Below, piece by piece: positions 34,936 to 41,932 of a DNA stretch of 64,000 nucleotides (the first letter of the stretch is position 1; every line of letters starts with the position of its first letter). This stretch comes from Methanorbis furvi (lineage in GTDB: Archaea; Halobacteriota; Methanomicrobia; Methanomicrobiales; Methanocorpusculaceae): assembly GCF_032714615.1 (NCBI RefSeq), contig NZ_JAWDKA010000001.1:248001-312000 (forward strand), in the 5' to 3' direction. A program made the position numbers and the translations under genes. Below the pieces are notes generated by a model. That model did no database searches and was not told where the DNA came from. It saw only the letters and a program-made list of their open reading frames with translations.

Positions 34936-34980
34936 ATTTTTCCGGCGGATTTTTTCCGCTGATTTTTTTCAAAAATTTTT

Positions 34981-35112
34981 TTGCAGTACCAGAGTTTGAT
35001 CACTGTCTTTATGCTGAGCTTCACGCATACAGATGAAATCATATGAAAAAATTTCAGAGATATTTTTTGCTGATGCTTCTCTGCATAACGATGCTCAGTT
35101 GTTTTGCCTTTT
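34981..35112 (+). repeat. 130-base direct repeat, copy 1 (promoter plus signal-peptide codons)
   Basis: Near-identical to 37390-37520. Contains the promoter motif ACCAGAGTTTGATCACTGTC and TTTATGCTGAG, and the first codons MKKFQRYFLLMLLCITMLSC. One base in the promoter differs (TTTATGC here, TTTATAC in copy 2). Confidence 0.88.
34988..35015 (+). promoter_or_regulatory. Promoter box B (site 1)
   Basis: ACCAGAGTTTGATCACTGTC then TTTATGC. It belongs with the sites at 37396, 38854 and 40583; consensus about YYAGAGTnTGnTCAC followed by an A/T-rich TATA region. Confidence 0.55.
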
Positions 35113-35246
35113 CGGTTTCTGCTGCCCCGAACGATATTTCGCCTGAGGATCGTGAGTTTATTGAAAGAACATCATCTGACTACCTGAGAGTCTCTCCAAA
35201 AAATCCTGCTGACCGACTGAGTGCTGATACCCTGGAAATGGCGTAG
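35043..35246 (+). pseudogene. Internally deleted copy of the 37451 pro-domain-like gene
   Basis: 67 residues. The signal peptide and first codons (MKKFQRYFLLMLLCITMLSC, then FAFSVSAAPNDISPEDREFI) are nearly identical to the protein at 37451-38812, but after about 45 residues the sequence jumps to PKNPADRLSADTLEMA, which in the intact gene lies some 210 residues further on, and then meets a TAG. It could still encode a short secreted peptide, but is best read as a remnant. Confidence 0.78.
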
Positions 35247-37389: not shown

Positions 37390-37520
37390 TGCAGTACCAG
37401 AGTTTGATCACTGTCTTTATACTGAGCTTCACGCATACAGATGAAATCATATGAAAAAATTTCAGAGATATTTTTTGCTGATGCTTCTCTGCATAACGAT
37501 GCTCAGTTGTTTTTCCCTTT
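37390..37520 (+). repeat. 130-base direct repeat, copy 2
   Basis: Matches 34981-35112. It covers the promoter box and signal peptide of the intact 37451 gene. The two copies flank the decayed duplicate and the A/T-rich two-gene operon. Confidence 0.88.
37396..37424 (+). promoter_or_regulatory. Promoter box B (site 2)
   Basis: ACCAGAGTTTGATCACTGTC then TTTATAC, about 40 bases before the start of the 37451 gene. Confidence 0.55.
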
Positions 37521-38812
37521 CGGTGTCCGCTGCCCCGAGCGATATTTCCTCTGAGGACAGAGCACTCATTGAAAAATACTCTCCGGCTTTCGGGGAACCG
37601 TTTCCCAATCCTGCTCTGCTGAAAGAGTATCAGGAAAATGATGCCCCCTACATTATTTTTGTGAATGAGATTGAGAACTCAGCTCCACCAAACTGGCGGA
37701 TGATTCAGATGTTGTACCATGATCCGGTACTGGATGAGTTTCTGTTGTCCATTGATCACACCGGCATCAGCCGCGACTCTGTCAGGCCAAAAAATCAGGA
37801 ACGCGAATCAATATCCCATGTTGGCCGCGATGCGTCAGGATTTGAGAATCTCTCAGATGCAGTGAGGGATTATATGCTGACGGATTTTCTGTTCTGTTAT
37901 CCAAACGAAACGGAGATTGTAACCAACATCACCGCTGGCGAGCTGTTTGAGACAATGGAAACAACATTTCGCTGCGTTGGTCTGAGCGGATCCGGAAATC
38001 TGGATGTGTTTGTCCGGCATGCAGCAATCGATGATACGGGAAATTTTTACCGGACTTGTGATCTGATCAATATGAAACGGTATCTGCAAAAAATTGCGTC
38101 GCAGAACGGGTATGATGAGTTTGGCGTGCTGCCGGTTCAGTTTATGGATATCGATGATGCTTTTTCAACGATCAGGGCTGAATCTGAGATTGTGACATTT
38201 CCAAAAAATCCTGCTGACCGAGTGAATGCCGACACGCTGGAGATGGCACAACAGATTCCCTCCCGCTCGTCAATTGATTTGGCGAATGCGAACAATGATC
38301 GCATAAAAATTGATGCCGGACCTGAGGTTCCGCAGCTCTCTCCTGACTGGACAACGGTCACGATGTTTTATTTTGATCCTGCGGTCTCGTTTCTGAAGGA
38401 CGGCCTGTATGCGAACGTTGATTCTGAGCTTCCGAAAGAGAGCAGGGAGTTTGTCCTCTCCGACTTTCCACATTATGATCGATGCGGCACGTTCGTTATC
38501 AGCGATGTAACGCTTGGAGAACTTCTCAATGATACCGATCTACAGTATCGTGGATACAGAATCAGTAACTCAGGATATCTGGAGGTCTTAATTGCCTCTT
38601 CATCCAATTACTCAGAAAAGGATCTGCTGAACATCTATAATGTTATTCAGAAGGTTGCATTTCTGAACGGGTATGATACCGCGATTCCAATCATTTTCCT
38701 TGAAGCGCCGGAGTATGATATCTGGATCGTTCCGGTCGAGTCGTCTGATATGGCACATGTGGAAAAGAGTATCTGGGAAAGAATTTTAGAGTGGTTGGGA
38801 GAATGGTGGTAA
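37451..38812 (+). CDS. Secreted protein with two tandem protease-prodomain-like units
   Basis: 453 residues with signal peptide (MKKFQRYFLLMLLCITMLSC). Two related ~160-residue units. Unit 1 is about residues 45-245 (PPNWRMIQMLYHDP, ITAGELFETMETTFRCVGLS, YLQKIASQNGYDEFGVLPVQ). Unit 2 is residues 265-435 (SPDWTTVTMFYFDP, VTLGELLNDTDLQYRGYRIS, VIQKVAFLNGYDTAIPIIFL). Unit 2 aligns with the N-terminal part of the serine protease encoded next (39115-40455), so this is probably a stand-alone pro-domain or inhibitor; that is inference. No catalytic triad and no C-terminal anchor. A truncated copy lies at 35043. Confidence 0.75.
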   Translation: MKKFQRYFLLMLLCITMLSCFSLSVSAAPSDISSEDRALIEKYSPAFGEPFPNPALLKEYQENDAPYIIFVNEIENSAPPNWRMIQMLYHDPVLDEFLLSIDHTGISRDSVRPKNQERESISHVGRDASGFENLSDAVRDYMLTDFLFCYPNETEIVTNITAGELFETMETTFRCVGLSGSGNLDVFVRHAAIDDTGNFYRTCDLINMKRYLQKIASQNGYDEFGVLPVQFMDIDDAFSTIRAESEIVTFPKNPADRVNADTLEMAQQIPSRSSIDLANANNDRIKIDAGPEVPQLSPDWTTVTMFYFDPAVSFLKDGLYANVDSELPKESREFVLSDFPHYDRCGTFVISDVTLGELLNDTDLQYRGYRISNSGYLEVLIASSSNYSEKDLLNIYNVIQKVAFLNGYDTAIPIIFLEAPEYDIWIVPVESSDMAHVEKSIWERILEWLGEWW

Positions 38813-39114
38813 ATTTTTTTCTTACTCAATTACTAACCATCATTTTTTGAAATTCTAGAGTGTGCTCACTATCTTTATGCTTCTTTTTTTAACAATAGAA
38901 ATATGTATGACTGAATGGTAAAACAACAGTCATCACAATGAATTGGGTGGTGGAGATTGATGAAAATCAAACTCCTGTTCATTTATGATACATTTTGTGT
39001 GAAATAGATGAATAGCTGTCCATTTCTCCCAATAATACGATGTTTGCATTTTTGTGATGTCGTGTTTATAGGTGAAGTATGAATAATGAAAGAAAAAAAT
39101 GAGATGACTTTGTT
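38813..39114. other. Gene-free upstream region of serine protease
   Basis: No gene. It contains promoter box B (38854-38880) with a TATA-like TTTATGC, about 235 bases before the next start, implying a long leader. No other structure seen. Confidence 0.45.
38854..38880 (+). promoter_or_regulatory. Promoter box B (site 3)
   Basis: TCTAGAGTGTGCTCACTATC then TTTATGC, upstream of the serine protease gene. The inner AGTG-TGCT-CACT is an inverted repeat. Confidence 0.55.
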
Positions 39115-40455
39115 ATGAAAAAATTTCAGAAGAATTTTTTGTTGATGCTGTTTTGCATCTTTGCATTGACTTGCATGGTCTCGGCAGTGATTGCGGCCCC
39201 AAGTGATCTTAGCATTGATGAACAGCAGATGGTACAGCAGCTTCCCTCCCAGGAAGCAATAGATCGTTCAAATGCATATAACGATCTGGTAAAAATCGAT
39301 TCAGGTGATGAAGTACCGGTTCTTTCTCCTAACTGGGTAACTGTTCAGACATTTTTTTATGATCCTTCTATGAAATTTCTGAATGATGGCTTACTTCTTA
39401 CAGGATCAAACAGAAATCGATTATCGGGGTATTCAGATGAGTACAAAAATCTCGTTCTTTCCAACCTCCAGTATTATGATCAAAATAATAATTATGTAAC
39501 TGGTGACATCACTCTTGGCGAGCTTCTTGATATGACCGACACCACATTCTGGAGTTATGGAATGAGTAGCTCTGGATACCTCGAAGTTCGTGTTGATACA
39601 TTGTCTCCCTATTCACAAAATGACATGGTAAATATCTACAATCTTATTCAGAAAACAGCTTCAATGAATGGATATAATATGGGTATTCCTGTGATTTTTC
39701 TTGAAGCTACAATTATTACGCCTGACATGATTTCTTCCGTCCCAAGTAGTGCTTTAGTTTTGGAACAAAATGCAGAATTAAGAAGTAAACTGGATCGGAT
39801 AAGACCCCTTTGGGGTGGTATTTACGCAGAAAATCAATATGGTTCCAGCACTATTGGTTTTTCTGCAAAGGACAGATCCGGAAATTATGGTATCGTAACC
39901 TGTGGACACATTAATCCTGTTGGAGCGAGAATTTATCAGCCTTATCGGTCAACAGAAAACAACTTCATCGGTACGGTCACTTCACGTTCATTAGCCACAG
40001 TGGATGCGGCTTGGATTAAATGTAGCAGTGGTGTCACCAGCGAAGGTAAAATCAACGGTGGGTATTCATTTGCTGAGGGAATAAACGTCAATAGTTACGG
40101 ACCCATAGATGTCAACAAGAACGTAAGAATCAGTGGTTATGTCTGTGGTAATATGGATGCATCATATGCTAGAGTCGAAACTACTGCATTTCCTATTACC
40201 AACAATTGTGATCAAGCTGATTCAGATCGTGGTTATGTCTCTATTCAGAACGCAATTATTTTGACTGGCACCCTCCAAAGCGGTGATAGTGGATCTCCTG
40301 TATATCAGACCTACGATGAATCAATTTTTGGAAACAAACACAAATTGATCGGTACTGTTTCCGGTACGTTTACCGATGGTGGTGGTCAGAGAATTATTGT
40401 TCAGCCCTTGCAACCTATTCTCGATAAACTTCAGGTCACTCCTATTACTGTTTGA
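39115..40455 (+). CDS. Secreted chymotrypsin-like serine protease with pro-domain
   Basis: 446 residues. Signal peptide MKKFQKNFLLMLFCIFALTC, then a pro-domain-like unit (residues 35-205) homologous to those of the 37451 protein, then a protease domain. The triad is visible: His in GNYGIVTCGHINPVG, Asp in LATVDAAWIKC, and Ser in LQSGDSGSPVYQT. Overall like streptogrisin/alpha-lytic-type S1 proteases, which need a pro-domain for folding. The protein has no anchor and would be secreted. Chymotrypsin-fold proteases of this type are not common in methanogens. Confidence 0.85.
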   Translation: MKKFQKNFLLMLFCIFALTCMVSAVIAAPSDLSIDEQQMVQQLPSQEAIDRSNAYNDLVKIDSGDEVPVLSPNWVTVQTFFYDPSMKFLNDGLLLTGSNRNRLSGYSDEYKNLVLSNLQYYDQNNNYVTGDITLGELLDMTDTTFWSYGMSSSGYLEVRVDTLSPYSQNDMVNIYNLIQKTASMNGYNMGIPVIFLEATIITPDMISSVPSSALVLEQNAELRSKLDRIRPLWGGIYAENQYGSSTIGFSAKDRSGNYGIVTCGHINPVGARIYQPYRSTENNFIGTVTSRSLATVDAAWIKCSSGVTSEGKINGGYSFAEGINVNSYGPIDVNKNVRISGYVCGNMDASYARVETTAFPITNNCDQADSDRGYVSIQNAIILTGTLQSGDSGSPVYQTYDESIFGNKHKLIGTVSGTFTDGGGQRIIVQPLQPILDKLQVTPITV

Positions 40456-40637: not shown

Positions 40638-41096
40638 ATGAAATGGATTTACGCGGTTTTTGGAATATTTCTTTTACTAGCATTATGTTCCATTCCGGTC
40701 GCAGCTGTAGATGATCTAACTGTATCTGAATATCAGATAATGCCGTGGTTCGATAGTTCTGTTTCAGAACTTCGTTCTTCCCAGTCCTCATCTGTTGTGC
40801 AAAACGGGGTGGAGAAATTTGATTACTATGTGTCCTCCGGATGCAAACAACTGGACATCAAAGTATCTTGGGATTTATTACCGAATTACAACTCACTGAC
40901 TCTCAGACTCTTCACTCCAAAGGGTTTTCTTGTGGGAGAATACACTGATACCTATGAATCATCCGTCAAAAACGGAATCATTCCGATAGCAATTACCTCG
41001 TCATCTCCTCTTGAAAGTGGGTACTGGCGCAGTGAGGTAGTTGGAACAAAAGTATCAGGTTCTCAGCCATTCAACATAATTATTAACAGTCGTTAA
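40638..41096 (+). CDS. Small secreted beta-sandwich-like protein
   Basis: 152 residues. Signal peptide MKWIYAVFGIFLLLALCSIP, then a mature part with alternating beta-type patterns (SGCKQLDIKVSWDLLPNYN, LTLRLFTPKGFLVGEYTD, SGYWRSEVVGTKVSGSQPF). It is distantly similar to the C-terminal part of the protein at 51421-52209 (RISVDLQWENPANIQNNLSI, EWWYCIQGVKVDG). Both are followed, overlapping, by a membrane-anchored double winged-helix regulator, so an extracellular partner or ligand-binding role for that regulator is inferred. Its stop overlaps the next ATG by one base. Confidence 0.68.
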   Translation: MKWIYAVFGIFLLLALCSIPVAAVDDLTVSEYQIMPWFDSSVSELRSSQSSSVVQNGVEKFDYYVSSGCKQLDIKVSWDLLPNYNSLTLRLFTPKGFLVGEYTDTYESSVKNGIIPIAITSSSPLESGYWRSEVVGTKVSGSQPFNIIINSR

Positions 41097-41932
41097 TGTC
41101 CTCCCGTAAATCTTTCCTGAGAATTGTTTGCCTTGCCTTGCTGTTTGTTTGTATAAGCGTCAGCTCGGTAACAGCTGCTCAGGAAGGAGTCGTATATTTT
41201 CCCCTCTCCGGCATCACCGTCTCCCCAGGAGATCCTGATCTCATCTCAGATGGAATGGATGATGAAAATCCTATTATCGAAGTCACCGGCTTTGACTTCT
41301 CCAAACCCGCCTTCGTCGCCCTCTTTCTGGATCTTTTCAACATCCATGATATCCCGGTATGGGCAGCAGAAGGCATTGCCCTTGCCCTTGCAGTTTTTAC
41401 CGGAGGTTTTGCTGCATTTCTCTTTACCCGCAGAAAACTTTCCGAAGACCCGGCCTCCCGCCCGATGCAGATACTTGCCTTCATCACCGAGCATCACGGA
41501 TGCCGGCAGTCTGACATCATCACTGGTACCGGTTTTTCCCGCGGCTCTGTTTCGTACAATCTGATACGTCTTATTCGGAAGAAGAAAATCCGAAAAATTG
41601 ACGGAGAGGAGGCGGTGACCTATGTTCCTGCCGGAACCAAATATGATGAAAAGGATCTTGGTCTGGTACTTCTCACTCATGAAAAGCCGCTGAAAATTTT
41701 TACCGTCATTGCCAAAAATCCCGGCATCTCGCAAAAGCAGATTGGCGAACGTACCGGACTTCCAACAAGCACTCTGAGGTGGCATCTATCCCGTCTTGAA
41801 AAATATCAGGTGATCTGCATGGAAAAAGATCGAAACCTGACGCAGTACACTGCTTCTCAGAAGTACGCGGATCAGTACGGATTTTCTGGCGAACATGAAA
41901 AATCTGATTCTGCAAAAACTCAATCGTCGTGA
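41096..41932 (+). CDS. Membrane-anchored double winged-helix regulator (module 1)
   Basis: 278 residues. Signal peptide-like segment (residues 8-28), a short outside region (30-80), a membrane span (VWAAEGIALALAVFTGGFAA), then two cytoplasmic winged helices. The first is ILAFITEHHGCRQSDIITGT, GFSRGSVSYNLIRLIRKK; the second is IFTVIAKNPGISQKQIGERT, GLPTSTLRWHLSRLEKYQVI. A one-component transmembrane transcription regulator. It is translationally coupled to the secreted protein at 40638. The same two-gene arrangement recurs at 51421-52975. Confidence 0.82.
   Translation: MSSRKSFLRIVCLALLFVCISVSSVTAAQEGVVYFPLSGITVSPGDPDLISDGMDDENPIIEVTGFDFSKPAFVALFLDLFNIHDIPVWAAEGIALALAVFTGGFAAFLFTRRKLSEDPASRPMQILAFITEHHGCRQSDIITGTGFSRGSVSYNLIRLIRKKKIRKIDGEEAVTYVPAGTKYDEKDLGLVLLTHEKPLKIFTVIAKNPGISQKQIGERTGLPTSTLRWHLSRLEKYQVICMEKDRNLTQYTASQKYADQYGFSGEHEKSDSAKTQSS

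Follow-up and report, generated by a model that had tools for sequence, protein, structure and literature searches.

It was found that the window, the 64,000-nucleotide stretch of Methanorbis furvi DNA analysed in this study, encodes a secreted serine protease (P0002) and, upstream of it on the same strand, a secreted protein made of two copies of the pro-domain unit of that protease (P0001). I propose, with a probability of roughly 0.6 on the combined analyses, that P0001 is a dedicated partner which binds P0002 in trans. Inhibition of the enzyme or self-protection is its most probable role, and help with folding is a possible one. The analysis shows the homology of the domains, the catalytic triad, the secretion signals, the adjacency of the genes, the co-inheritance of proteases and partners, the pattern of C-terminal anchors, and one genome (G463) in which the pro-domain is present only in the neighbouring gene. 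A broader proposal is offered tentatively: two methanogen orders may possess an undescribed system in which a secreted alpha-lytic-type protease is accompanied by a co-inherited, often tandem, and usually anchored pro-domain partner that shields the producer.

The P0001 gene (37451-38812, forward strand) has 453 codons. Its product consists of a signal peptide (MKKFQRYFLLMLLCITMLSCFSLSVSAA, 37451..37534, assigned by sequence inspection and by DNA common to P0002 and a decayed gene copy), unit 1 (37532..38200), and unit 2 (38201..38809), which ends in a Trp-rich helix. The P0002 gene (39115-40455, forward strand) has 446 codons and encodes a signal peptide, a pro-domain unit (39196..39780), and a catalytic domain (39802..40452) whose first residues are RPLWGG. 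The sequence-only reading had claimed that the N-terminal unit of the protease is homologous to both units of P0001. This was confirmed by comparing local alignment scores with those of 500 shuffles: the P0002 unit matches unit 2 with z=64 (46% identity) and unit 1 with z=22 (31% identity), while units 1 and 2 match each other with z=19. With the protease domain of P0002, both units score at chance level (z about 0), in agreement with the claim that P0001 has no protease domain. Unit 1 gave a profile match with an E-value of 2e-64 to a model whose alignment includes unit 1 itself. In a profile-profile comparison with an alignment lacking any window sequence, window-type units scored a probability of 96% (E 6e-9). 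The AlphaFold2 models of all three window units have the same order of elements, E-E-H-E-E-H-E. Among the motifs said to be shared, QKxAxxNGY is present in all three units, but TLGELL and SPxWxTV are degenerate in unit 1; VTLGELL/ITLGELL has become ITAGELF, and SPDWTTV/SPNWVTV has become PPNWRMI.

Is the unit a known type of pro-domain? The expectation that it belongs to the bacterial alpha-lytic/streptogrisin pro-domains was not borne out by sequence. The PF02983 profile did not match the window proteins, and over 159 genomes it gave nothing above the cut-off, only sub-threshold noise as in the controls. Nothing informative for the unit came from scanning the window proteins and representative stand-alone proteins against Pfam and NCBIfam, and no match of the I9 (subtilase propeptide) kind was seen. 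A search of PDB sequences with the profile of the unit gave no credible match. In a fold search, the P0001 model had a best Z of 4.8 and nothing at E<=0.001, which is no evidence of a new fold. The weak matches listed include KH, RbfA, EngA, and CzrB domains as well as 4jm1, which is described as alpha-lytic-prodomain-like. As modelled, the unit resembles such folds weakly and is compatible with a bacterial alpha-lytic pro-domain. Since the profile failed and the fold similarity is weak, the P0002 unit differs in this respect from the pro region of alpha-lytic protease; it is called a pro-domain by position and is not assigned to PF02983. That position, between the signal peptide and the protease domain, is the same in about 50 archaeal proteases of two orders.

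The enzyme itself had been described as chymotrypsin-like, and its type can now be specified. The top structural matches of the catalytic domain are alpha-lytic/streptogrisin enzymes with the double beta-barrel fold (Z 23-25; VIA-align Z about 25 to alpha-lytic protease), and the catalytic family profile A6 picks up the alpha-lytic/streptogrisin family by sequence (E about 1e-11). The triad of His265 (39907..39909, TCGH), Asp297 (40003..40005, TVDAAW), and Ser392 (40288..40290, SGDSGSP) is intact; all three columns are invariant in A6, and the order TxGH ... D ... GDSG(G/S)P is that of the S1 family. P0002 is a predicted serine protease of the alpha-lytic/streptogrisin type (MEROPS S1), which it resembles in catalytic fold, in triad, and in the N-terminal unit between signal peptide and protease. 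A first scan of genome contigs with P0002 as the query gave no match, while a further scan showed that Methanosarcina, Methanolobus, and Methanococcoides also carry the unit/protease family. No viral contigs carrying a related protease were found. In a 2008 survey, no S1 proteases were listed for Methanosarcina acetivorans, M. mazei, and Methanococcoides burtonii (PMC2605481). Most proteins of the family go unrecognised by Pfam today, and the archaeal alpha-lytic-type proteases seem to be under-recorded. Several of the proteases are frameshifted or truncated (L028, L031, L032, L202, and L213), and loss of the enzyme therefore seems frequent. One genome (G049; L131 and L137) has another S1 protease group that looks by eye like the rice NAL1 type.

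The pairing of a protease gene with a stand-alone pro-domain gene recurs in two orders. In Methanosarcinales, 34 of the 39 fetched protease loci have such a gene directly downstream on the same strand, with a gap of 0-658 bp between the ORFs, and roughly one partner in two is a double-unit protein. In Methanomicrobiales, a stand-alone pro-domain gene lies within 800 bp of the protease at 6 of 23 loci, and the gap is 0-4 bp in two of them (L030 and L077). Two Methanosarcina loci (L155 and L176) combine a protease with a double-unit protein as in the window, in the reversed gene order. Under a null model of simple uniform placement, chance pairing is negligible even at generous copy numbers. The arrangement had been called unreported for archaea. 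No description of such a protease/partner pair was found in the open-access literature. The arrangement is not confined to the P0001 locus, as these counts show.

In a tree of 156 units, the protease units and the partner units are largely separate (14 label changes against a shuffle mean of 42 and minimum of 33). A corresponding partner clade exists for each of five protease clades, and all 28 classified loci agree; since the classes come from one quick tree of about 100 columns, this concordance is supportive but not decisive. The match also holds inside genomes with several pairs (within-genome permutation probability of 0.014, four genomes). As the clades are separate and concordant, most partners are likely to be old co-inherited companions of the proteases and not fresh copies. 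A general origin of the stand-alone units by fresh copying from the adjoining protease was rejected; it holds for two loci only (L181 and L092), which look like recent copies.

The stand-alone proteins often differ from the proteases at the C-terminus. A hydrophobic C-terminus followed by a basic tail is scored in 35 of the 48 long stand-alone proteins (28 are PGF-like) and in none of the 41 proteases, and several of the other 13 stand-alone proteins also finish in PGF...RK by eye. With PGF, a hydrophobic stretch, and a basic tail, many Methanosarcinales partners resemble the archaeosortase-sorted PGF-CTERM proteins, but the NCBIfam sorting models score below their cut-off, and thus the anchor is a motif reading. 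To judge from this motif, the majority of partners seem to be held at the cell surface. P0001 differs in that its C-terminus lacks all three elements. The description of the stand-alone tandem as a secreted protein fits P0001 itself, while the partners of its relatives are usually anchored. A natural split pair was found in G463 (L199 and L207), where the protease consists of a signal peptide and the mature domain, and the pro-unit is part of an anchored protein encoded just upstream. The L207 protease is intact, and a GGGGG run precedes its plausible TTG start, while the L199 protease has an apparent frameshift in the signal peptide. At L207:4432-5997, a long C-terminal region, dockerin-like by eye, comes after the protease without its own pro-domain.

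In the bacterial alpha-lytic protease, the pro region belongs to the precursor and is not known to be additionally encoded as a separate gene. Folding of alpha-lytic protease is sped up by its pro region, and before cleavage the pro/protease junction spans the active site (PMC2829044). Stand-alone propeptides of subtilases act as strong inhibitors; SUB1-ProM, which has a conserved locus beside its protease, inhibits that protease, and the MEROPS I9-type stand-alone examples (SUB1-ProM, the Pleurotus inhibitor, the yeast proteinase B inhibitor, and TgMIC5) are all eukaryotic (PMC6993865). By analogy with these two systems, the archaeal partner would be expected to bind its mature protease in trans. 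The N-terminal unit of P0002 would aid the folding of the protease, cleavage would occur near the junction before RPLWGG, and the freed unit could remain on the active site. P0001 would be exported separately and bind mature P0002 with its two units, restraining or inhibiting it near the producing cell for self-protection; in Methanosarcinales, surface-held proteins may do the equivalent job. Binding, inhibition, and help with folding are inferred, as are the site of cleavage and the purpose of having two units, which may lie in two sites or in avidity.

The partner might instead be mainly a foldase acting in trans. This alternative is unlikely, although it is consistent with the accelerated folding of alpha-lytic protease (PMC2829044) and with the split pair, where a protease without its own pro-unit may require a trans-acting unit for folding. 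Nearly all partnered proteases, including P0002, have a pro-unit of their own, so that a second foldase seems redundant, and lasting restraint suits a surface-anchored partner better than one-off folding. Thus, inhibition or self-protection is the preferred reading, and folding help is retained as a second possibility because of the G463 proteases.

Like the SUB1-ProM/I9 inhibitors, P0001 and its relatives are separate genes encoding a propeptide-like domain and no catalytic domain. They differ in that the partner protease of P0001 belongs to S1, while the proteases of those inhibitors belong to clan S8, and in that the archaeal partners show tandem units, C-terminal anchors, and clear homology to the pro-domain of their own protease. 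An archaeal pairing with the chymotrypsin fold would extend separate propeptide-like inhibitors to a new protease class and a new domain of life. It suggests how S-layer-coated cells might export aggressive proteases without damaging themselves, and the pairing may serve as control of, or as a cell shield against, the cell's own protease. The proposed protease and shielding partner would be comparable to a toxin and its immunity protein. With recurrent pairs, genomes with several pairs, and the split pair of G463, the system is directly testable.

The units are distributed more widely than the proteases. Single- and double-unit proteins without a protease domain were found throughout Methanomicrobiales using profiles built from the protease set. 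Since the unit is present in 56 and the protease in 23 of the 159 genomes, stand-alone units outnumber proteases, and 24 of the 55 Methanosarcinales-type genomes with units also have a protease. The caveats to the partner model are this frequency of units in protease-less genomes and in other fusions, the missing PF02983 match and the weak fold match of the unit, and the lack of an anchor and of a found ortholog for P0001. In another reading, the unit is a module for extracellular binding or sensing in general that proteases recruited as a pro-domain, and its stand-alone copies act otherwise; in its favour, stand-alone units occur in many genomes without any detected protease, and the unit is fused to HEAT repeats, to an S-layer-type domain, and to a membrane winged-helix regulator. 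This reading is rather improbable, and it accounts neither for the matched partner directly downstream of 34 of 39 Methanosarcinales proteases nor for the concordant clades. As for the fusions, the unit lies behind HEAT repeats in secreted Methanosarcinales proteins of L149, L150, L153, and L189, and at L189 a protease gene is directly followed by genes for two of them. In two species, stand-alone proteins (L092:5461-6030 and L094:4222-4785) join a pro-unit and the initial part of the protease domain to one common new tail (TTDFRGRNSANIFMRREA).

The local history of the pair leaves traces in the window. It had been noticed that both genes share signal-peptide sequence and an upstream box. The former is evident at the DNA level (84% over 45 bp). 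The latter, a promoter-like box (GAGTNTGMTCACTNTCTTTATRCT), is also real, but its spacing is unequal: the forward-strand copy at 37400..37423 lies 27 bp before the ATG of P0001, and that at 38858..38881 lies 233 bp before the ATG of P0002. The degenerate pattern has three exact matches in the window (34992, 37400, and 38858) against 0.01 expected. The copy at 34992 is part of a decayed partial copy of P0001 on the same strand (34977-35246), on which the sequence-only reading was silent. It contains the box, the signal peptide, and then the inter-unit linker followed by TAG, and matches the P0001 gene at 95% over 173 bp (box and signal peptide) and at 88% over 48 bp. The locus is syntenic in a congeneric genome (G008), where P0001 is absent and the protease lacks its second half, apparently through deletion; a degenerate copy of the box lies upstream of that protease. 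No ortholog of P0001 was found, and the window pair is known from one genome only. A further two-unit protein (G000:C11), with a membrane segment at its C-terminus, is encoded in the genome of the window. In a further tree, built from these units, both P0001 units group with the unit of P0002 (support of 80/87, which is not strong). Thus, the tandem most likely arose within its own lineage, and, at this moderate support, it seems to be of local origin in a Methanocorpusculum-like lineage. Orthology of P0001 to the Methanosarcina double proteins was rejected, as the window units group with P0002. It is very improbable that local duplication left P0001 and its decayed copy behind as by-products of the protease gene without a function: the decay of the partial copy, the recent copies at L181 and L092, and the common occurrence of broken proteases (G008, G043, and G053) would suit such an origin, but the P0001 ORF is intact over its 453 codons, a promoter-like box of its own precedes it, its units have diverged, and most partners elsewhere are co-inherited and not close copies of the adjoining pro-domain.

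Two genes follow the protease gene in the window. The first (40638-41096) encodes a small secreted protein that looks by eye like a PPC-type (pre-peptidase C-terminal) beta domain, with no Pfam match. The second (41096-41929) encodes a membrane-bound winged-helix regulator, which also adjoins the protease in G008. A relative of this regulator in another genome (G004; 39% identity in the regulator part) has a pro-unit-like extracellular domain, hinting at a possible role of such regulators as protease sensors.
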